DNA from: Methylacidiphilum caldifontis
GTDB taxonomy: Bacteria > Verrucomicrobiota > Verrucomicrobiia > Methylacidiphilales > Methylacidiphilaceae
Length of the DNA stretch: 64,000 nucleotides
Assembly: GCF_017310505.1 (NCBI RefSeq)
Contig: NZ_CP065957.1
Coordinates: 1,488,001 to 1,552,000 of the forward strand
Direction: 5' to 3'
Positions 2 to 13,423 of the stretch are shown here, piece after piece. The notes beneath the pieces are model-generated. The model worked only from the letters and a program-made list of their open reading frames with translations. It made no database searches and was not told the DNA's origin. The translations under genes and the position numbers were made by a program. How positions within the stretch are numbered: the first letter of the stretch is position 1; the number at the start of each line of letters is the position of its first letter.

Positions 2-733
2 ACGAATATTACGGCACAAAACGTGTTCTTCGGGGGTGGAAGTCTAGTTGGACCAGCTGTAGTCACGACTCAGAACATGGTGATTGCGGCTAGAGGTAAT
101 GTTAATAATAGGACAGGGAGTGATCCTTTAAACAATAGTTTTCATCTTTCTAATGGACCATGGGCTGCAACGACTAACGTAGTGATTAATGCCATAGGGA
201 CAACGGGTAAACAGGCGATTAACCTTGCAATAAATGGGAACGCGACGGTCAATTCTGGGCAGACTTCTACGTTTCTCCATAATGATACTATTGGATTGAG
301 TTTGCCCACTCCCAATGCAGGGAGTAATCTGCTTGTGAATGCTTCTGGCAATTTGACTATTAACCCAAGTATGGTTATTGAATATTTGGCCTTTGACCCA
401 TATACGCTCAGTAAATTCGTATTTCATGTACCTGGCTTTAGTTTTCCGGGTGGGATAGTGTTTATGTCTGGGGGGACGCTAAAGATCAATACCATTGTTG
501 ATAATGGATATACATCACAAGCGGTGGCAGGACAGGGAATATTCTTCCAAGCTCCTAAAATCGTGACGACGAGTCCTGTGATTACCAGTGGGAATACGTG
601 GGTAAATTTCAGTACGACACCCACTACGGTGCCTGCTATTTATTCAGCAACTCCTGTATCGAAAATTACGCCAAATATATTTAATGTGGCACTGAATCCC
701 AGTGCTTATCATGTCAGATCTTTTAGCCCATAA
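2..733 (+). CDS. FHA-like large secreted protein, copy 1 (C-terminal part only)
   Basis: The reading frame is open from the left edge of the window, so only the last ~243 residues are present. They are rich in Gly, Asn, Ser and Thr with repeated beta-strand-like segments, as in beta-helical exoproteins. Blocks such as GNVNNRTGSDPLNN, FHLSNGPWA, AINLAINGNA and SNLLVNASGNLT recur almost unchanged in the two copies at 2879-5037 and 5259-7369, so this is the first member of a tandem paralogue set. The copies downstream that retain their N-termini carry a two-partner-secretion-like domain, so this protein is probably exported and surface-exposed. This copy is unbroken over the visible part, including the place where copy 2 has lost a base. 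A terminator follows at 766-793. Substrate or adhesion target cannot be read from the sequence. Confidence 0.8.
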   Translation, partial: TNITAQNVFFGGGSLVGPAVVTTQNMVIAARGNVNNRTGSDPLNNSFHLSNGPWAATTNVVINAIGTTGKQAINLAINGNATVNSGQTSTFLHNDTIGLSLPTPNAGSNLLVNASGNLTINPSMVIEYLAFDPYTLSKFVFHVPGFSFPGGIVFMSGGTLKINTIVDNGYTSQAVAGQGIFFQAPKIVTTSPVITSGNTWVNFSTTPTTVPAIYSATPVSKITPNIFNVALNPSAYHVRSFSP

Positions 734-765
734 AGGGTGATTTAAAAGGAGATGCATAGAAAAAG

Positions 766-793
766 GAGGCAATAGCTAATTGCCTCTTTTTTT
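766..793 (+). terminator. Rho-independent terminator after copy 1
   Basis: A perfect 8-bp stem, GAGGCAAT (766-773) and ATTGCCTC (779-786), with a 5-nt loop is followed by seven T residues. It lies 33 bases after the stop codon of the copy 1 exoprotein gene. Confidence 0.85.
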
Positions 794-897
794 ATTATTT
801 AAATCATTAGGCAAATTTTGTTTATTTTTGTGAAATAAAAAAATGAGTGTTGCTTTACTAAAAGAAGTTATTTAAAAGATTTTCTTTTTGGTTTTTT

Positions 898-1299
898 CTA
901 TTCTTCAGCATAGCGAAACGCTATAGCATGATAATAAGGAACAGTCCTATTTAGGTTAGTGTCATACATTCCCCCTGCCGTATTCATGACAAAAGGATTA
1001 GCGATCGGAATGGACTTATCTTCGATGATTAGCCCTTGAGCCCCAAGTTCTCTTGCTTTCATTGCAAGAGCTCCAATAATCTCTGTTTTTGGGGTGCCTT
1101 CTGCACCCCTGGCATTAAGTTCAGCAATTTTATAATACTTGCGTTTTGGAGGCTGGGTCATAATATCAAGATAGCGGGTAGGACTGTAAGTCTTGGAGCT
1201 GAGCCGTTTGACACTAACCGATTCCTGGTGGACACAGCTTAATAGAAAAAAACAAAAAAGAAAAGTCAGTTTGGCCAGTGTAGGTTTTTTGGTATTCAT
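898..1299 (-). CDS. Small putative lipoprotein of unknown function
   Basis: The 133-residue protein starts with a basic N-terminus, a hydrophobic stretch and a lipobox LLSC with the acylated Cys at residue 22. This predicts a type II signal peptide and a lipid-anchored periplasmic protein. The mature part contains a segment around ALAMKARELGAQGLIIED that looks like an alpha/beta unit, as in small lipoproteins that handle heavy metals or redox stress, but I do not recognise a family. It lies 12 bases downstream of the truncated parvulin gene on the same strand and may have shared its transcript. Both are wedged between copies 1 and 2 of the exoprotein genes. Confidence 0.7.
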   Translation of the reverse strand: MNTKKPTLAKLTFLFCFFLLSCVHQESVSVKRLSSKTYSPTRYLDIMTQPPKRKYYKIAELNARGAEGTPKTEIIGALAMKARELGAQGLIIEDKSIPIANPFVMNTAGGMYDTNLNRTVPYYHAIAFRYAEE

Positions 1300-1311
1300 G
1301 GATTTAAACAG

Positions 1312-2043
1312 TTAAGGATTAGCTGTTGTGATAGGCAAAGGAAAGATTTGAACTTGTCCTGATGACACAAGTTCCTGAACATGTTTTTTAAGGTTTTCCT
1401 GCTGGATCTGTTGGATTAGAGCCGGTTTAAGTTCTTCAAAAGAAGGGATTTTGTAAGGACGCACGGCCAACAGTTCAATGACTTCCCAACCAAGGGAAGA
1501 AAGAATAGGACCCCCTACTTGGCTAGGTTTTAACTTTTCAACAAGAGAAAGAGCCGAAAGTACGAGATTTTGACTATTGATCCAGCCCAGTTCACCCCCT
1601 CGGTCAGCTGTTCCTTTCTCAAGAGATTCGGTAGCTAGCAGAGAAAAATCCTCTCCTTTTTTTAGTCTTTGCATGATTTCAAAAGCTTTTCTGCGGGTAG
1701 GGAGAACAATATGCCTGATTTTGTATTCGAATTTGGGAGCTGTTTTTAAGAACTCTTTGTATTTGGCATAAAGTTCTTCTTGAGAAGGTAAAGAGCTGTT
1801 CACTACTTTTTTAATGAGCAGTTCAGCGAGTATTTTGCGGTTTAATTCATCCTGAGTTCTGATCGCTTCTTTGGATCTATCCAGCTCCAGTCTTTTGGCT
1901 TCTTGCACCAGTAATTCTTGCTGGACAATGGTGGCTAAAGCATTTTGTATGGCTTGAGTATCGGGGTTGGATACTCCTGCTTTCTTAAGCTCATTTAAAA
2001 CAAAGGATTTATGGATTTCAACGCCATTGACAATCGCAAGAAC
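1312..2043 (-). pseudogene. Parvulin-type peptidyl-prolyl isomerase (SurA/PrsA-like), 5'-truncated
   Basis: The frame is open from about 2043 down to 1312. It begins VLAIVNGVEIHKSFVLNEL, which matches the start of the mature SurA/PrsA N-terminal domain (usually preceded by a signal peptide), and continues through a parvulin domain: IRHIVLPTRRKAFEIMQRL, then GEDFSLLATES and RGGELGWI. A stop codon stands directly upstream and no signal peptide is encoded, because the opposite-strand barrel remnant begins at the same point. The only conventional in-frame start is a GTG at 1908, inside the chaperone domain, giving 198 residues with no export signal. Such isomerases fold outer-membrane proteins in the periplasm; without its signal this one is probably non-functional. 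Family assignment is firm; loss of function is inferred. Confidence 0.75.
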
Positions 2044-2648
2044 TTAATAAAGAAAATAAAAGATTATTTTTTGGTGGTTTGCGTTATTGGCAAGTTTATG
2101 GGCAGCAGGTGGCTTATGACGATGAATCTTTGAAATGGACTTTTGATGAAGCCCTTACGTTAACGAATTTTCAGGATTATTTTATTTTCCAGCACCTGTA
2201 TGCCCAGGATTATAACACTTTAAGTTTTGGTTCTAACTTAAGCCAAAGTTTTAGAGCCATTGGGTCGCCCGCTTAATGGGATGGGGGAGTTCGTATAATC
2301 CATTTTTTTGCCCATGGCGAGTTCAAAATCTTAAATCAAATATGGACATGTGGATTTTGGGGGGATGGATAATCTTTTGGCATGGTATACCGTGGTACTT
2401 TTTTGGAGATACGGGTTTTATTGGAAGAACGGTACTTCATTCATCAACATGAAAGGTATGGGATTTTACAATCCGCAAGGAGCCGTTGCTGCCTGAGAGT
2501 ATCTAGGGGATGTGGGGGTGGGGCTAGATATTATACATAAATATGGGACGACGATCAGTGCGATGGCGGCATTTCCAGTGATAGCGATCAATGGGTCCCT
2601 GGATCAAAGGTGCAACGAAAGGCAGGGTGGCGATTCAATTTGGCTTAA
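2043..2648 (+). pseudogene. Decayed outer-membrane beta-barrel (porin-like) gene
   Basis: No intact gene spans this stretch, but successive pieces in different frames read like one barrel protein. Frame 3 gives RLFFGGLRYWQVYGQQ, then a segment to a stop at 2276. Other frames continue with NPFFCPWRVQN (about 2300-2330), LLAWYTVVLFWRYGFYWKNG (about 2362-2421), an internal stop near 2494, VGLDIIHKYGTTISA (about 2518-2562) and a final AGWRFNLA ending at 2648. Alternating aromatic/polar residues are typical of transmembrane strands; the pattern recalls alginate-export or OprB-like porins, but this is tentative. The 5' end is missing and abuts the truncated parvulin gene. At least two frameshifts and one stop show it is dead. 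Confidence 0.5.
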
Positions 2649-2878
2649 GATAGAATTTTTAATGAGTTGTTGTGTTATGAACAAAAAAATGAGTAAAAAC
2701 CAGAGTAATAGGGTAGAGTTTGGAACTGAGGAAAAGAAATGAGGATAAAAAATGATTTTGTGGACTAATTAAAGGGAAGAAATTTTTAAGATTTTTATTT
2801 TTTCTTTAACAATATTAAAAAATCTGTGATAAAGATTAATACATTTTTGAAATATAAATACAAAAACAAAGAAGGTCA

Positions 2879-5037
2879 TTGAAAAGATTGTTCTTAAGGA
2901 AACTTTATAAAGCGATTTTGATATTGGCGGCATCCCTTTGGATAGGGCTGGGGACAAAGGGATGGGCAGTTCCTGGGGCTGGTCAATTGCCAGGACATGG
3001 AAGTGTTGTATCTGGTTTGCCAGGGACGACCTATACTCAAGCTGCTGGGACTAATACTGCTACACTCACAATTCCTGCTGGTAGTAATACAGCTATTTTA
3101 TGGCAGAGTAGTGGAGGGACATTAAATGTTGCTGGAAGTGGTCCAGGTTTTAATGTGGGATCTGCTGCGACCTTAATTATAACAGCTGGTGGTGCTGGAA
3201 GCAGCTTATTAAATGTGGACACCACAGGCAGTCCTTCTTATATTATGGGAACTCTTACTGTAAATTCTTCAGGTGGTAATACTCTACCAGTATATGTGGC
3301 CAATGGAAGTGGGATTGTTGTTGGTCCTAAGGCATCAATTACGGCTCCTTTGGGGCTTGGACTCTTGGGTTATGATTTGAGTAGTCAAGCATCGAGTTTT
3401 AATGGAACAGTGAGTGTGGCGCCAACGACCGCGGGCTCATCGGTTACTGTACAATCAGGAGCTACTCTTAATGCGACTGGAGGAGCGGTTACAATTGCAG
3501 CACCTACGGTGAATGTCGGGATTGCTACACCAACTTCTTTTGCTGGGGTATGGGTTAATATTTTATCTGGCTATGCTTTTACTACTGGTTTAGGTGCAAA
3601 TATTTTATTATTTTCTCCAATAACCAATGCGACTGCTGGGGCGACTGCGGGTTCTATTACCATTTCAGGTCCTGCATCTAGTTCTTTTATCTTTCCTTCA
3701 AACTCTTATCTGCTTTATTCTGGGAACATTACCACAAGTGGGATCCTAGATCTCTCTACTCTTGGTGTGTTGCATTGGGGTACATTTAATCCTTCAAACT
3801 TAGCTGCTGCTACCTTTACGAATAATGGGACCATTACATGGGCTCCGAATAATTTCCATGTAATAAACCAATCTAATTCAGGATCACTTGTAAATAATGG
3901 ATCGATTCAAGCTGGGACAGCTGATCTTGTCATTAATGTTGGGGGGAGTATTACCAATAATCCAGGTGCTACGATTGATGGGGGTGGGTTTAATGTAAAA
4001 TTGTTAGCAGGTACGACATCTGCCCCCGGAAATGGGATAGGAGGAGGGATTGTTAATCATGGAACCATTAGTGGATTTAATTCAGTCCAACTTTTTGCTT
4101 CTAATGTCAATGGGATTGGACCTTATCCAAAGGGGGGAATCTTCAGTGATGGAACCATTGCGATTACCAATCCAGCAGGGAATGCCAATGGTAGCACTCT
4201 TATTGTAAAGAGTGATAGCGGGAATGTTTTCCTTGGAGGAACAGTGAATATTGCTGATCCAAAGGGTCTAAACGCTGCGGACCTATCAGTACCAAGTGGT
4301 CAATTTTTCACCCTGGGAACGAATCTTATGGCTGAATTCGTGGCCGCTTTTGGTGGAAGTTTTGTGGGGCCTGCTACAATTACGACCGAGACCATAATTT
4401 TTGATGTTACTGGCAATGTCAATAACAGGACAGGGAATAATCCATTAAACAATGGCTTTCATCTTGCTAACGGACCCTGGGCTCCCAACACTTCTATATA
4501 TGTTACTGCTAATGGTGTGGGCAAGCAGGCGATTAACCTTGCTATTAATGGGAATGCATCGGTTACCTCTGGTTCTACTTATACGTTTGCTAATTCAAGT
4601 AGTACAATTGGTGGAGTAACTACACCAGCTCCCAATGCAGGAAGTAATCTGCTTGTGAATGCTTCTGGAATTTGACCGTCAACGGAAGTTTTCCTTTTCC
4701 TCATGCTTCACTCAGCAATTTCGTATTTACATCTGCTGCCTTTAACTTTCCGGGCGGGATAGTATTTATGTCTGGTGGAACGCTAACGGTCAACACCATT
4801 GTTGATAATGGGTATACAGGGACAGCGGTAGCGGGACAGGGAATATTCTTCCAGGCTCCCACGATTGTGACAACAAGCCCAGTGATTACCAGTGGAAATA
4901 CATGGGTAAACTTCAGTACGACGCCCAGTACGGTACCCGCTATTTATTCAGCAACTCCGCTGACGACAATTACACCAAATATATTTAATGTGGCATTGAA
5001 TCCTGGTGCTTATCATGTCAGACCATTTAGCCCATAA
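2879..5037 (+). pseudogene. FHA-like secreted protein with TPS-like domain, copy 2, frameshifted
   Basis: A TTG start behind GAAGG gives a signal peptide (basic start, hydrophobic core, end near TKGWA) followed by LPGHGSVVSG. The segment from about residue 65 to 165 contains ILWQ, FNVGS, LLNVD, SPSYIMGTLTV and VANGSGIVVGP, the landmarks of the two-partner-secretion (filamentous haemagglutinin N-terminal) domain. The rest is Gly/Asn/Thr-rich and probably beta-helical. Translation stops at 4675 in ASGI-stop; moving one frame from 4669 restores NLTVN and homology to copies 1 and 3 up to 5037. Against copy 1, one base is missing after position 4668. Intact, the protein would be about 719 residues. 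No TpsB/FhaC transporter gene is in the window. The upstream gap 2649-2878 is AT-rich with no gene. A sequencing error remains possible. Confidence 0.8.
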
Positions 5038-5064
5038 AGGCTGATTAAAAATGAAGATGCTTTG

Positions 5065-5099
5065 AAAAGGGAGGTATTCACTCATTGCCTCCCTTTTTT
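5065..5099 (+). terminator. Rho-independent terminator after copy 2
   Basis: A perfect 10-bp stem, AAAAGGGAGG (5065-5074) paired with CCTCCC plus the following T run, encloses a 13-nt loop. It occupies the same place relative to the stop codon as the terminator after copy 1. Further downstream both copies share the motif CATTAGGCAAATTTT, so the duplicated unit includes the 3' flank. Confidence 0.85.
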
Positions 5100-5258
5100 A
5101 TTGAAGCATTAGGCAAATTTTTTTATGTGAGAGAAAAAAAAGCTTTTGCTTTTCTTAAAAATAGTAATGAAAGATTTTTTTAGGTATGAAACATAAAGAT
5201 TGACATGAGGATTACGATTTTGTAAAAGGGATGTCCCTAAACTCAACCAAGGAAAAAG

Positions 5259-7369
5259 TTGAACAGGAGAATATTAACAAAATTAAGGAAAATAATTTTT
5301 TCTACAGGCTTACTGTTCTTAATCAAGCTATCTTTTATCAAAGCCTATGCTTTTGTTCCTCCTGCTCCAAATCAGCTACCTGGCCATGGTTTAGTTGTGA
5401 GTGGGTCTGCTTCTTTAAATCCACCTGGCAACACTCTTCATCTTGGATCTCAAAACACCTCTATTTTATGGGGTGGAACTTCTTACAACCTGAATCCCAA
5501 TCAACCGGGAGGGTTTAATATTGGTTCTAATGCTCATTTTGGAATTGTAAAAAATTTTCAAGGCTCAGCCTTAGCTACAGTACTTAATGTAGATGTAAGC
5601 GGTAACCCCTCTCAAATTTATGGGAACCTTACTGTTGCCGGTGATGTTGTGTTCTTTCTTGCCAATGGGAGTGGAATCATTGTTGGTCCTTCTGGTACTA
5701 TTAATGCACCGGCTGGAATTGGTCTTTTTGGGTATTCGTACAATGCAGCCAATTTCAATGGTACTGTATCTATAGCGAAAGATAGTCCGGGAAGTTTTGT
5801 TCAAGTGATGAGTGGAGCGACATTACGTACTGAAAAGCCTGGAGCCATGATCCTTATTGCTGCTCCAAGCTCGGTTAATGTGGCTGCTGCAAGTGCTGAA
5901 TCTGGAACGGGAGGGATAGTCGCCAAAGGTGGGTTAATCTCATAACAGGCTATGCCATCAGTGGATATAATGGTTACACCTTTTCCATACCTTCCAATGG
6001 TGCGTTTACAACACAAGGAAGTTTAACCATTACGGGTCCTACGGGTAATGATCCTTTTGTAATTGCCACAGCGATCAGTAATGGCAGCATAACGACAAAT
6101 GGCACTGTGTTACTTCCTCCAACGGGTGCTCCTGGTCCAGGAAGCTTGGTTTGGGCTACCACTCTAACCAATAATGGTACTCTTGCTTTCTCTGGTCCTT
6201 TGTCTTCCGCCAATAGATCTTTTAGCGGTTCTTTAATCAATAACGGTTCCATTGTATCGTTTAAAGATCAAGATGTGATGATTAATGTTAATGGATCTAT
6301 TGTGAATAATTCGGGTGGGTTAATTCAGGGAGGACAACCGGGAGAAGATATCGACAACAATGTAGTTCTACGAGCATGGCAAGGGGGACTTGTTAATTAC
6401 GGTACGATTAGTGGTCATAACAGCATCATTTTGGCCGCGATGAATACCACGGGTAGCGGTCCTTATTCTGGAGGAGGCATTTTTAGTAATGGAACCATTA
6501 ATTTTAGTGCTGATTCAGGATCCTCTTCCTTTGTTTTTAGAAGTGTTACGGGCGCGGCTTTCTTGGGAGGAACAGTTCATTCATCGAACGAAAATGGAAT
6601 TACGAATGGATATTTCCAGAGTAGCTCTTCTCCTGTTGCCCCTTTCACCCTTGGAACTAATGTAATGATTCAAAATGTGACCTTTAATGGAGGAAGCCTA
6701 GTGGGGTCTGGAGTGCTGACCACCGAGTCCATTAATATTACAGCTACAGGTAATGTAAATAATAGGGTGGGGTCTAATCCCCTTCAAAATGGGTTTCACT
6801 TAGCCAATGGGCCATGGGCTCCAATAACGAATATTACGATTAATGCCGTTGGATCAGGTCCTCAAGCGATCAATCTTGCCATTGCGGGGAATGCCTCGAT
6901 CAATTCGGGGAACACTTCAACGTTTTTAGGTACAAGTAGTTCCCCCAGTGGACTTACTCTTCCTGTTCCTAATGCGGCAAGTAACCTGCTTGTTAATGCG
7001 AGTGGTAATCTAACAGTCGATCCCAGCTCAACTGGTCCAGCCCATGAATCAATGAGTAACTTTATATTTGGCGTTAATGGCTTTAGTTTTCCAGGAGGTA
7101 TTGTGCTTATTTCAGGGAGCGCATTGACTCTTAACACGATTGTTGATAATGGGTACACAACTTCAGCTAAGGCAGGTCAAGGGATATTCTTCCAGGCTCC
7201 AACAATTCATACGACTAGCCCTGTGATTACCGATGGAAATACTTGGGTGAATTTTAGTACACAACCTTCTTCTGTTCCTGCAATCTATGCAATCAGTCAA
7301 GTTGCTTCTGGAGTTTACAATGTTACTCTTAATCCTGGAGCCTTTCATATCCGTTCTTTTAGTCCTTGA
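5259..7369 (+). pseudogene. FHA-like secreted protein with TPS-like domain, copy 3, frameshifted
   Basis: A TTG start lies five bases after AAGGA and opens a signal peptide ending near IKAYA. It is followed by LPGHGLVVSG and a TPS-like domain (ILWGG, FNIGSNAHFG, LNVDVSGNPSQIYGNLTV, LANGSGIIVGP). The frame ends at 5945, but the next frame is open from 5930 to 7369 and begins WVNLITGYA, matching WVNILSGYA of copy 2. One base is therefore missing at about 5928-5930 relative to copy 2. Intact, it would be about 703 residues. The C-terminal blocks (NVNNRVGSNPLQNGFHLANG and the ending GAFHIRSFSP) match copies 1 and 2. A GTG at 6107 could restart translation but would produce a product without export signal. 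Terminator at 7400-7430. Confidence 0.8.
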
Positions 7370-8216: not shown

Positions 8217-10391
8217 ATGTCCAAAAAAAAGCGATCGATATGCTTGGTGTGTCCTCAAGGAATTGACCAAGATAGAAATATTCGTTTTAGGTTTTTTTAT
8301 GAATCATTGGCTTTGGATCTTGCTGAGGGGGGATATGAAATTTTTCTTCTTTATTATTTAACTTCTCCTTTAAAAAAAAGCTCATTTGTTTTCCCAAAGA
8401 ACCTTTTCGATCATTACGGAGTCTATCCTTGTTTCATAGAAAACGAGATAGAGGGAGTTGGTATCTGTGATCCCATTCCCATCAAGGTTTCATATACTCT
8501 GTTTTTGTGGCTTAAGGAAAGAAATTTTGATTATGTCCATTTTCCCTTTGAGGGGGGAGTGGGATACTATTCAATTCTAGCGAAGTTTGAAGAGCTAGCT
8601 TTTCAGAACACATGTCTTGGAATTAATCTCTTTTCTTTGCCTTTATTAACAAGAAAAAATAAAGAATACAGTTTTATTAGATCTGTTGAAAATTTATACG
8701 AAGATTACATGGAAAAGGAGAGTGTTAGATGGGGAGATTTTTTGGTTACAACCAACTCCTTTTTTTTGAAAACCTTAGAAACAACTGGATGGTCACTGCC
8801 AGAAAAAAAGGGTTGTCTTGGTTATCCATTCCATCCCTCAATCATTCAAAACAAGGCATGGAGACAAACGATTCAGCGGTTAAATATTCCCATGCAGATT
8901 GTTTGTGTTGGAGGATCGGAAAAAAAAAAAGAGATTAACAAAGCTTTCTTAGAAAAATATCCACACCAATTCGACAAGATTTATTTTTTAGATTTTTTTA
9001 AAGGACTAAAAGAGAATGTAAAAGATAATGAAGTAGGTATAGAAGAAATACAAAACTTATTGTACCTATTGCCCAACCCTCTTCTTATTGCCCTGGAAGG
9101 CAAAGAAGGATTAGAAATTGTCTTTTTAACTGCTTTAGTTTTGGACATTCCCATGATGGTTAGTCTCGAGGCAATTGGATATTTTCCTTTTGAATCGATG
9201 GCAAGGGAAAGACTTGTTTTCGAAGACCTGAACGATCTATTTATAAAACTGGAGTTGATCCTGCAAAGAGAATGGCTTTTGGGTTTTGATGAAAAAACTT
9301 TTAGGGGAAAATGGGTACAGTGGCATAAGGAATTTCCATTGTATTCGAAAATGACCCAAAATATAAGAATAACGGATCGTCAACCTAAAATTTCAGTTGT
9401 CCTCGTTCACCATGACAGACCTCGATATCTGGAACAAGCCATAAACTCTCTTTTAGTCCAACGCTATCCGAACTTCGAAGTTGTTCTTATTGATGATGGA
9501 AGTGAGAGGGAAGAAAGCCAAGTCGCTTTGAAAAATTTTGAGAAGATTTTCAAAGAAAAAGGATGGATTCTTTCCAGGGAATCCAACCAATATCTAGGAG
9601 CGGCTAGGAACCGTGGAGCAGAGCTAGCTTCGGGAGAATATCTTTTGTTCATGGATGATGATAATATCGCAAAATCGAACGAATTAGAAATTTTTGCTCA
9701 AGTGGCAATTTGGACCGGTGCTGATATTTTGACAGCGGTAAAAGACTTTTTTACTGGAGAAGAGCTTTTCAAAGATAAATCTATTCGGTTACTGAGTATT
9801 CCTTTGGGAGGGGACTTGGCTTCGGGTTTTTATGAAAATCGTTTTGGGGATGCCAACGCTCTTGTCAAAAAAAAGGCCTTTGAAGAGTTGGGAGGGTTCA
9901 CGAAGGATTTCGGAATTGGACATGAAGACTGGGAATTTTTTTCAAAAGCTGTACTTTGTGGTTATAAACTTCTGGTCGTACCCTTGCCTCTTTTCTGGTA
10001 TAGAACGGGTCATACGAGCATGTTAAGTAACACTCTGAAAGAAAGGAACTTTTTTAGATCTCTTAGAGCCTACATCGCTGGTGCTGGAGATAAAGAATGG
10101 CTCAAAGGGGTTTTGCTACTCGCGCATTATCTTTACTTGGAAAAGATATTTTTTTTGTCTCGCAGCTTCGAAACAAAAGAAAGAATTTTTGGAATGGAAA
10201 AGTCTAAACTAATAATCAGTTTGCTTGAAGAAGAACTAGACAAAGAAAGAAAGGAAAAGGAATTATTTTTGGCTCGAATAAAAACTTTGGAAGAAGAACT
10301 TGAAAAAGAAAAAAAGCATGGGCTTATTGGAACGATGCGTCGGATAAGCAAAGAATATGAAAGAGCTAAGAAAAGGCTTTTGGGAAAATGA
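8217..10391 (+). CDS. Two-domain glycosyltransferase (GT4-like then GT2) with C-terminal coiled coil
   Basis: The 724-residue protein has two parts. Residues about 5-350 look like a GT4-type (GT-B) domain: an N-terminal Rossmann-like half with WLKERNFDYVHFP and GGVGYYSILAK, and a C-terminal half with GKEGLEIVFLTALVLDIP. Residues about 390-620 form a GT2 (GT-A) domain: ISVVLVHHDRPRYLEQAINS, VVLIDDGS, GAARNRGAELASGEYLLFMD with a D-D-D metal-binding motif at 480-482, and GIGHEDWEFF as likely catalytic-base region. Residues about 665-715 are Lys/Glu-rich and predict a coiled coil. It should transfer sugars from nucleotide sugars to a growing surface glycan or glycoprotein on the cytoplasmic face. 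The GT4 half lacks a clear E-x7-E pair and may be weakened. Close homology to the middle of the sulfotransferase at 10749-13400 is visible. Confidence 0.85.
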   Translation: MSKKKRSICLVCPQGIDQDRNIRFRFFYESLALDLAEGGYEIFLLYYLTSPLKKSSFVFPKNLFDHYGVYPCFIENEIEGVGICDPIPIKVSYTLFLWLKERNFDYVHFPFEGGVGYYSILAKFEELAFQNTCLGINLFSLPLLTRKNKEYSFIRSVENLYEDYMEKESVRWGDFLVTTNSFFLKTLETTGWSLPEKKGCLGYPFHPSIIQNKAWRQTIQRLNIPMQIVCVGGSEKKKEINKAFLEKYPHQFDKIYFLDFFKGLKENVKDNEVGIEEIQNLLYLLPNPLLIALEGKEGLEIVFLTALVLDIPMMVSLEAIGYFPFESMARERLVFEDLNDLFIKLELILQREWLLGFDEKTFRGKWVQWHKEFPLYSKMTQNIRITDRQPKISVVLVHHDRPRYLEQAINSLLVQRYPNFEVVLIDDGSEREESQVALKNFEKIFKEKGWILSRESNQYLGAARNRGAELASGEYLLFMDDDNIAKSNELEIFAQVAIWTGADILTAVKDFFTGEELFKDKSIRLLSIPLGGDLASGFYENRFGDANALVKKKAFEELGGFTKDFGIGHEDWEFFSKAVLCGYKLLVVPLPLFWYRTGHTSMLSNTLKERNFFRSLRAYIAGAGDKEWLKGVLLLAHYLYLEKIFFLSRSFETKERIFGMEKSKLIISLLEEELDKERKEKELFLARIKTLEEELEKEKKHGLIGTMRRISKEYERAKKRLLGK

Positions 10392-10748: not shown

Positions 10749-13400
10749 CTATTCTTTAAAGAAATCAGGTTGTTCTTCAAAAGGAGAGTTAAGAAGAAAG
10801 TGGGTTAGGGGATTGAGCCCGATGTGTAAGAGGTCAGGATGAAGTTTTAGATAATTTTCAGTTGAAAATTTGGGATGTGGGTTTTTTAATTCTTTCCAAC
10901 CGAATAAAAGAAAGTGAACAAGGGGGTTTATGCCCATTGGTTGGATTTCTGGACATTGACTTACGTAATACGAGGAATCAAAATAGGGGCTTGGAGAACG
11001 ACCCTCTCTGCCTCCATGTTCAATATAATGTTGAAGTGGATCTACACCTGCAGCAAGAACATCTGGATTTTTTTCAAGGTAATAATGGGAATCAAAAAGC
11101 AAGGAATTTCTGATCAACTCACTCAGCTGTGCCTTTTGTCCTTCAGATAAATTTTCAAAAGAAAAGGCTTTTGATAAAGGAAAAGATTTTGGTTTCAGTA
11201 GGGTAGTTTCACTGAACAAAAGATTGATTACGTAACGGGCTCTTTTGAGTTTTTCAGTGAGAGTTTTTTCAGTATTGAAGAGTCCCAAAGGAACGTATCT
11301 TTGTCGCGTTTCGGCTTGATGAGAAGCCAGTTGGAACTGAGACATACAACTACCCAGCAGTGCCTGGATAAAAGCCTTGTAGGAATGGGGCAAGGAATCG
11401 AAATAACCGTGAAGAAATGAAAGGAAAGATTCATCTGTTGAAGCCCTAGAGGCTACCCATATCAAAGGTTCAGGGAACACCGAAGCTTTAATGCCTTTCA
11501 TTCCCAAGAAAGCGAGGAATTCCGACCGTGCTCTTTCTGGATTTTTCTCAGTGAAATCTGATTGGTTTTGAAGAAAAACTTCTTTTTCAATGATAAAAGG
11601 AAAATCTCTAATCGGTAAAAGAAAATGTCCTAAATCTAAGGAGTTTCTCAAGAATGGGATCTGGAGGGCGTAGAGCTGATCATTGTTATTTAAAAGCAAA
11701 GGATTTAATCCAATGAAGAAGCTTATTGAAGAGCTTTCATTGTTAGCTAAAAAGCTAATTAACGGCTCAACAAGAGCGGGATTTAGATTTTCTTCTTCTT
11801 TTAAAAAAAGAACAAATTTGGCTTTGGCCTGCCTAACCAAAGATTTCCATCTGTCTAAAAAAGAGATCCATGGAGGGAAAAAGAGCTGGTACACTCCATT
11901 AGAAAGAGCTATAGGTGAAGAGTTTGTTTCAATAGCTCTTTGTTCATCCATTCCAAAAAGCCATTCGATTGATTCATTTGTAGGGAAAGCGGTAGGTGGT
12001 TGTTTTTCCCCATGAAGAACATAACAAATACTCAATAAAGGAGTATCCTTTTGGGGATCTGTAGGATTATCCTTTTTATTGCTTAAAGTTAACGTTTCTT
12101 TCTCAAGAGCAAAGGAGAGATAATTTTCTATGTTTGGGTAGGCGTTTTCATTATGCTTAGTAGTTCCATAAAGAAGGATTTCAGTCGATGAAAGGCAAGG
12201 CAAATGAACAGCTTCGAGCGCAAAAAAAGCTATGCCTTTTGCGACTGGTAATATGATCTGGTCATAATACCTGTTTTTTAGATAAGAGTATAAAGCAAAG
12301 GGAGGCCTAATCGCTTTTGTACAAATAGGGAGGTTGAGTAATTCAGGGCTTTCATCAAAAGGCAATTGCCCTATAGCCATTCCAAGCTCAGCAACTGAAG
12401 ATGAAAATTCTTTCTCTGGGGTTCCTTCTGCTAACAGTAGACTGATCTGAAAATTTGGATCCTTTGGCTGTCTTTTAGCTAACTCCCAGGCTTCGTCATC
12501 GGCCGGAGAACTAAAAACAATAGCTAGCCTTTTTTTATTTTCAAGCAAATTTGGATTTTCTTCTCCTTGTTGCAGCCTGAAGAGTAACCATTCAAAATCG
12601 GTAAGTAATTGTTTTTTAAATGTGCTGTCAAAAGCTTTTTTTCTTAGAGAAAGAATAGATTGATATGCCCATTCTGCCCACAAGGGTATGTTCCATTCTA
12701 TGCTTGGTTCATGCTTTAGTTCTGGCTGAATAATCTTTAGGATTTCAGTTTTTGTTGCTTCTGTTAAGTCAATGTCAAGAGCTTGAGTTAAATAAGAAAG
12801 CTCAGCATCAAAATCTTGAAACCAGTTTTCGAAAACGACAATGGCTCGAAGCCTGTCTAATGAATGTCTAATGGCATCGAAATTATAACGAAGCCAAATT
12901 TTCAGTATGCGTTCTTGGGGGATCTTATCCCTGAGATGAATAGAATGAACAACATCACGTGGATTTCTAACCGACAAGATAAAGATGGGTTCAGCTTGAA
13001 GTTCTATCCAGATTTTTTTGTAAATAGGCAAAAATCTACTTGTTCTTGGATCTTTGAACCCAAAAACTCCACCGTTTTCTTCCATTCTTTGGGATAGCAC
13101 TTCCTTGAGTTTTTGTTGTGCATTAAGGAGAGGAGGTGATAAAAAAAAGTCTTTCGGGTACGGATCAACCGAGTTTTCTTTCCACCAATCGAGTCCTAGT
13201 TGGATTAAAAGTCCATCTTGTATGGCGACAATCTCTTGATCTTCCCAATATCCTTTTTTATTGTGTTCATTGGCACCAATGAGATTTTTGCCAAAGGGAA
13301 TTCCAAGGGTATTGAGAATGTTTCCCAGCAGAGAAGTCCCACTGCGATGCATGCCCAGAACACAGTAAATTTTGTTTTTGGTGCCTACCCATTCATTCAT
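10749..13400 (-). CDS. Sulfotransferase fused to a degenerate GT4-GT2 pair and C-terminal repeats
   Basis: The ATG at 13400 gives 883 residues. I prefer it to a TTG at 13421, because the -10 element at 13424-13429 would put the transcript start downstream of that TTG. Residues about 10-245 are a sulfotransferase domain: PAPS-binding loop GMHRSGTS at 16-23, FGFKDPRTSRF near 113-123, and SVRNPRDVVHS near 143-153 (3'-phosphate binding). Residues about 290-658 align by eye with the neighbouring glycosyltransferase: YLKNRYYDQIILPVAKG with WLKERNFDYVHFPFEGG, IENYLSFALEKE with VENLYEDYMEKE, FVLFLKEEEN with YLLFMDDDN. The GT2 aspartates are lost, so this part is probably non-catalytic. Residues about 769-870 carry three repeats of the type FDSxYYLxxNPDVxxxGxxPLxHY, also known from other cell-surface glycan enzymes. 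Likely role: sulfation of a surface glycan. Confidence 0.8.
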   Translation of the reverse strand: MNEWVGTKNKIYCVLGMHRSGTSLLGNILNTLGIPFGKNLIGANEHNKKGYWEDQEIVAIQDGLLIQLGLDWWKENSVDPYPKDFFLSPPLLNAQQKLKEVLSQRMEENGGVFGFKDPRTSRFLPIYKKIWIELQAEPIFILSVRNPRDVVHSIHLRDKIPQERILKIWLRYNFDAIRHSLDRLRAIVVFENWFQDFDAELSYLTQALDIDLTEATKTEILKIIQPELKHEPSIEWNIPLWAEWAYQSILSLRKKAFDSTFKKQLLTDFEWLLFRLQQGEENPNLLENKKRLAIVFSSPADDEAWELAKRQPKDPNFQISLLLAEGTPEKEFSSSVAELGMAIGQLPFDESPELLNLPICTKAIRPPFALYSYLKNRYYDQIILPVAKGIAFFALEAVHLPCLSSTEILLYGTTKHNENAYPNIENYLSFALEKETLTLSNKKDNPTDPQKDTPLLSICYVLHGEKQPPTAFPTNESIEWLFGMDEQRAIETNSSPIALSNGVYQLFFPPWISFLDRWKSLVRQAKAKFVLFLKEEENLNPALVEPLISFLANNESSSISFFIGLNPLLLNNNDQLYALQIPFLRNSLDLGHFLLPIRDFPFIIEKEVFLQNQSDFTEKNPERARSEFLAFLGMKGIKASVFPEPLIWVASRASTDESFLSFLHGYFDSLPHSYKAFIQALLGSCMSQFQLASHQAETRQRYVPLGLFNTEKTLTEKLKRARYVINLLFSETTLLKPKSFPLSKAFSFENLSEGQKAQLSELIRNSLLFDSHYYLEKNPDVLAAGVDPLQHYIEHGGREGRSPSPYFDSSYYVSQCPEIQPMGINPLVHFLLFGWKELKNPHPKFSTENYLKLHPDLLHIGLNPLTHFLLNSPFEEQPDFFKE

Positions 13401-13423
13401 CTGCTGAATTAAACAAAACAATC

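Follow-up and report, generated by a model that had tools for sequence, protein, structure and literature searches.

How a protein comes to carry a well-preserved sulfotransferase (ST) alongside a glycosyltransferase (GT) part that looks dead, where that part came from, and whether it is still of use are the questions raised by one open reading frame, P0002, in the 64,000-nucleotide stretch of Methylacidiphilum caldifontis DNA analyzed here (the window). A sequence-only reading of this DNA had taken the frame for a sulfotransferase fused to a degenerate copy of the neighboring GT4-GT2 enzyme, P0001. P0002 encodes 890 amino acids from a TTG codon or 883 from the ATG at 13400, and residue numbers below follow the 890-residue frame. 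Its parts, and the neighbor, are as follows.

10749 to 13421, minus strand: the whole P0002 open reading frame as called, with codon usage equally gene-like in the ST and middle parts.
12705 to 13376, minus strand: the ST domain (residues 16-239), from the ST tree, the fold match and the kept motifs.
12543 to 12704, minus strand: a helical linker (residues 240-293), homologous to the linker of L129, a protein of Acidithiobacillus ferrivorans.
12078 to 12542, minus strand: the N-terminal Rossmann-type half of a GT4 (GT-B) domain (residues 294-448), from profile, multiple alignment and model.
12060 to 12077, minus strand: the deletion junction (residues 449-454), from the alignment gap against the long-form family.
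11427 to 12059, minus strand: a degenerate GT2 (GT-A) domain (residues 455-665), from profile, motif alignment and model.
11142 to 11426, minus strand: a helical tail behind GT2 (residues 666-760), alignable in part to the family tail, from profile and model.
10776 to 11105, minus strand: three FDxxYYL..NPD.. repeats (residues 773-882), common to other ST, GT and methyltransferase proteins of the genus.
8217 to 10391, plus strand: P0001, the intact GT4-GT2 neighbor, convergent with P0002 and homologous to its middle, from domain and similarity searches.

The N-terminal sulfotransferase is as sound as the sequence-only reading had supposed. It retains the 5' loop (GMHRSGTS, residues 23-30, of the form GxxRSGTS), the glutamate of the GxWE motif (E60), KDPR (123-126) and the 3' motif RxP.....S...R (152-164), and of the 26 columns with at least 90% conservation among 41 related ST domains it keeps 23. 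Against Pfam PF13469 (Sulfotransfer_3) the domain scores 15.3 bits, under the gathering score of 27, which is a strict cut-off here in that several other ST domains also score below it. The modelled residues 13-258 match TPST1/2 and the olefin-synthase ST with Z of about 14.7 (Foldseek, VIA-align). A supply of PAPS in the organism is likely, given that an APS-kinase domain is encoded in the genome in an open frame of 684 amino acids.

The nature of the middle part is revealed by family profiles alone, since pairwise BLASTP, Pfam and NCBIfam are too weak to establish its homology: BLASTP between P0002 and P0001 is marginal (E 0.004), and in hmmscan Pfam sees nothing in this region and NCBIfam gives a sub-threshold match only. 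A phmmer search against PDB sequences and a scan of the genome contigs with P0002 as query both returned no match. Against a profile of ten members of the P0001 family, the P0002 middle scores 17.0 bits, a score reached by none of 2000 shuffles, the best of which gave 3.4 bits. Its N and C parts alone score 13.8 and 15.5 bits (0/2000 shuffles each), and neither half matches the profile of the opposite half. A profile of 32 members from many phyla, made with P0002 left out, gives 24.2 bits (E 2.3e-8 among the open reading frames of the window), the best unrelated frame reaching -1.0 bits; the match to the GT4-GT2 family is significant over both domains. When the middle alone was used to search related genomes, chiefly GT4-GT2 proteins were recovered besides P0002. 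As judged from these sequence profiles, the assignment of residues of about 294-448 and 455-708 as collinear homologues of the GT4 N half and the GT2 domain of the P0001 family holds.

Structure modelling gave a compatible picture. AlphaFold2, run with a 40-row alignment, returned pLDDT values mostly above 90 for the ST, about 85 for the GT4 N half, about 75 for GT2 and below 50 for the repeats. Residues 460-678 of the model match GT-A enzymes (SpsA with Z 13.5 and rmsd 3.0 over 183 residues; WrtF with Z 14), a match that is to be read as consistency and not as independent proof because the input alignment held GT rows and the GT fold is partly built in. Folding of residues 455-708 from the single sequence, with no alignment, reached a pLDDT of 40 and yielded no usable model. 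The fold-search comparison rests on the ST and GT2 parts, the GT4 N half being barely covered.

The middle had been described as running collinear with P0001 without large gaps. The collinearity stands at the level of profiles, and the anchor pairs picked out by eye do align in the multiple alignment, but a single gap of about 190-230 residues opens in P0002 around residues 448-454 relative to the long-form family. The spacing from VENLYEDYMEKE to LFMDDDN is about 310 residues in P0001, whereas the equivalent anchors lie about 93 apart in P0002. What is absent is the C-terminal, donor-binding Rossmann half of GT4, the half that binds the sugar nucleotide in GT-B enzymes. Because this half is gone, the GT4 part of P0002 is, by alignment, half a domain and not a point-mutated enzyme.

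Such a reduction is tolerated and has precedent, as eight family members from several phyla are without the same GT4 half (L136, L150, L132, L125, L158, L127, L146 and L140). Like P0002, these short proteins match the family across GT2, which in them follows directly on the GT4 N half; unlike P0002, they carry no ST in the same chain and their GT2 motifs are intact in the five checked. These proteins seem to retain half a GT-B domain as an accessory of GT2. Two further candidates (L141 and L148) were dropped as short forms, having about 185 unmatched residues between the halves. Split GT-B enzymes, Alg13/Alg14 among them, can use an isolated N half as the acceptor-side partner, although their donor half is a separate protein.

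In the GT2 domain, the active site itself has been replaced. The family alignment shows DDGS as SNGV (507-510), DDDN as KEEE (541-544), GDAN as RDFP (605-608, with D606 kept) and EDWE as ARSE (631-634, with E634, the second glutamate, kept), and the LGAARN loop has lost its RN. The 32 other GT rows without exception retain DxD (one as DPD), the aspartate of GDxN and the aspartate of ED, a comparison in which intact motifs are over-represented, as the relatives were found partly through the LFMDDDN pattern. The loss of the DxD-type aspartates and of DDG, first noticed by eye, is thereby confirmed. The domain retains its fold length and element order, and of the 43 alignable family-invariant columns 16 are kept, mostly G, P, L, F and W and mostly structural. 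The earlier description of a dead GT pair behind a good ST applies as regards a degenerate module, with the correction that GT4 has been half deleted rather than point-mutated.

The pattern of divergence sets P0002 apart from its intact counterparts. Among five intact fusions, each of the ten pairs shows higher conservation in GT2 than in ST (50.8% versus 38.2% in one of them), whereas in the five pairs with P0002 GT2 is the less conserved in every case (to L129, ST 38.4% and GT2 28.9%). Codon likelihood per codon is nevertheless the same in kind for the middle (0.158) and the ST (0.156), and the middle has remained open over 475 codons, for which the chance without constraint is about 1e-13. 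P0002 was rejected as a pseudogene, the frame being without lesion and its codon usage normal. This reversed conservation together with gene-like codons fits either a loss of catalysis with the folded module kept, or a frame kept open for the downstream repeats.

The account that we consider fairly probable, on comparative evidence, is that P0002 descends from a fused ST-GT4-GT2 protein. In its sequence the ST retains PAPS-binding and catalytic-type motifs, GT4 is without the donor half, and GT2 has lost every nucleotide-, metal- and base-type motif although its length and many structural residues persist. The GT part has diverged much faster than the ST, with frame and codon usage remaining gene-like. 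The ST would carry out PAPS-dependent sulfation of a surface glycan, the half-GT4/pseudo-GT2 part may have been retained as a structural or spacer element or as a glycan-acceptor-binding module, and the C-terminal repeats may serve as a common docking or tethering module. Acceptor binding occurs in GT-B N halves as well as in GT-A folds, and a scaffold or glycan-binding role of the GT part, as had been proposed, is plausible. The neighbors of P0002, two methyltransferases and the intact P0001, fit a surface-glycan locus.

Alternatively, the GT part could be a functionless, decaying passenger, with selection acting on the ST alone and the frame held open by the downstream repeats. Fast divergence, the loss of nearly all motifs and the deletion of half of GT4 would agree with such decay, as would the result that no orthologue with the same middle was found in 13 genomes of the family or 388 genomes of the phylum. 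However, GT2 length, element order, the 16 invariant positions and gene-like codons have all been kept, and the downstream repeats would preserve only the frame and not those residues; we regard simple decay as unlikely. A GT2 part that is still an active transferase, with an altered metal-independent or glutamate-based (KEEE) site, appears improbable: acidic residues (E542-E544) do occupy the DDDN position and D606 and E634 persist, but substitutions have removed DDG, DxD and the ED base, the RN pair is gone, and the fast divergence is unlike that of the active GT2 domains of such fusions.

The descent of P0002 from an already fused protein is indicated by L129 (1928-5473, plus strand, 1182 amino acids), an ST-GT4-GT2 fusion protein of Acidithiobacillus ferrivorans DSM 22755. 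A single high-scoring pair runs across ST, linker and GT4 N half (178 bits, E 7e-50), and a second covers GT2 (E 4e-5). Like P0002, L129 has the order ST, short linker, GT4, GT2, with 38% identity in the ST and a homologous linker; unlike P0002, it has a full GT4 with the donor half, all GT2 motifs intact and no FDxxYYL repeats. In a tree of 42 ST domains, P0002 pairs with L129 as its sister (98/87); a Verrucomicrobiales ST is the next to join them (100/98), and the ST paralogues from the genus and family of P0002 lie apart. The tree from GT columns alone also places P0002 and L129 as sisters (98/99), a placement that is weak when taken alone because the P0002 branch is very long, at 10 changes per column. 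The Verrucomicrobiales ST protein (L126) was checked for a hidden GT part and gave no match to the family profile.

These results do not support the reading of the P0002 middle as a copy of P0001. P0001 and its sister-genus orthologues belong to the same GT4-GT2 family as the P0002 middle, but they are full-length with intact motifs and have no ST, P0001 is not the closest family member, and a second P0001 copy was dropped as parent of the middle after the similarity rank, the ST tree and the GT tree had been considered. That a P0001 duplicate joined a sulfotransferase and subsequently lost its activity is very improbable: the genes are adjoining and homologous and the AU test does not formally reject their pairing (p 0.096), yet P0001 ranks 23rd among the 32 GT-bearing family rows in similarity to P0002, and ST and GT parts both favor the already fused At. 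ferrivorans protein. That P0002 lies beside P0001 does not count as evidence that it derives from P0001. As the AU result leaves the P0001 pairing unrejected, the inferred origin rests on the combined evidence of the L129 alignments, the two trees and the P0001 rank, from which P0002 was most likely inherited as an already fused ST-GT4-GT2 unit, probably by horizontal transfer. Clear orthologues of P0001 itself occur in each of the seven genomes of one sister genus, but the four remaining genomes of its own genus contain nothing as close, and its locus is therefore probably mobile or repeatedly lost.

Intact fusions of this kind are not rare. Further single-chain ST-GT4-GT2 proteins were found in Acidithiobacillus (L098, L217), Oleiagrimonas (L114) and Roseovarius (L107), and ST-GT2-GT2 (L223, L224), ST-GT2-GT4 and ST-repeat-GT4 proteins are also common in the searched genomes, one of the last type (L034) belonging to the same genome as P0002. 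Like P0002, they have a Sulfotransfer_3-type ST at the N-terminus of a large GT protein; unlike P0002, their GT motifs are intact or their GT domains lie above Pfam cut-offs, and several have long coiled-coil linkers. Fusions of about 1,000-1,700 amino acids (L129, L098, L114, L217, L107, L223, L224, L227 and L228) are common in acidophilic and other Gammaproteobacteria-related genomes.

The proposal that P0002 has an undescribed architecture must accordingly be divided, as the ST-GT fusion is genomically common and the dead GT part is the unusual element. No paper on ST-GT fusions or on dead GT parts in sulfotransferases was found in the literature searched, and the "pseudoglycosyltransferase" of published papers, which refers to ValL/VldE-type enzymes, was set aside as unrelated to P0002. 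The same architecture was recovered from other genomes in its intact ST-GT4-GT2 form, but a second ST fusion with a dead GT was not found in a search that depended partly on an intact LFMDDDN motif. What appears new and unusual, on present sequence comparisons, is the pairing, within one fusion, of a dead-looking GT part with an intact ST.

The three C-terminal repeats noted in the sequence-only reading are real and measure about 38 residues each. This 38-residue repeat, FDxxYYLxxNPDVxxxGxxPLxHYxxxGxxEGRxP, has no Pfam or NCBIfam match in P0002 and is common to ST, GT and methyltransferase proteins of the genome and genus (L034:5383-8457, L237:598-3120 and L238:855-1802); it may act as a docking module that the members of a glycan assembly line have in common. 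Directly upstream, 23-7369 on the plus strand holds paralogous adhesin-like stretches, one with a weak match to a two-partner-secretion domain. Some are split into consecutive open reading frames (2879-4675/4672-5037 and 5259-5945/6107-7369), and these could be genes with frame shifts or phase variation.

P0002 offers a clear natural example of a multidomain glycan enzyme that has apparently lost one of its activities and retained the other, and its intact fused relatives provide a reference. It also illustrates how annotation misses degenerate GT domains, its middle part being invisible to Pfam and sub-threshold in NCBIfam. We advance tentatively the more specific possibility that the GT pair of this ST fusion has become a pseudoenzyme module that is dedicated to binding the glycan acceptor and determines sulfotransferase specificity. 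If the pseudo-GT part does bind the acceptor, it would show how ST-GT fusions may guide sulfation, and bacteria could then reuse GT folds as carbohydrate-binding domains of glycan-modifying enzymes.
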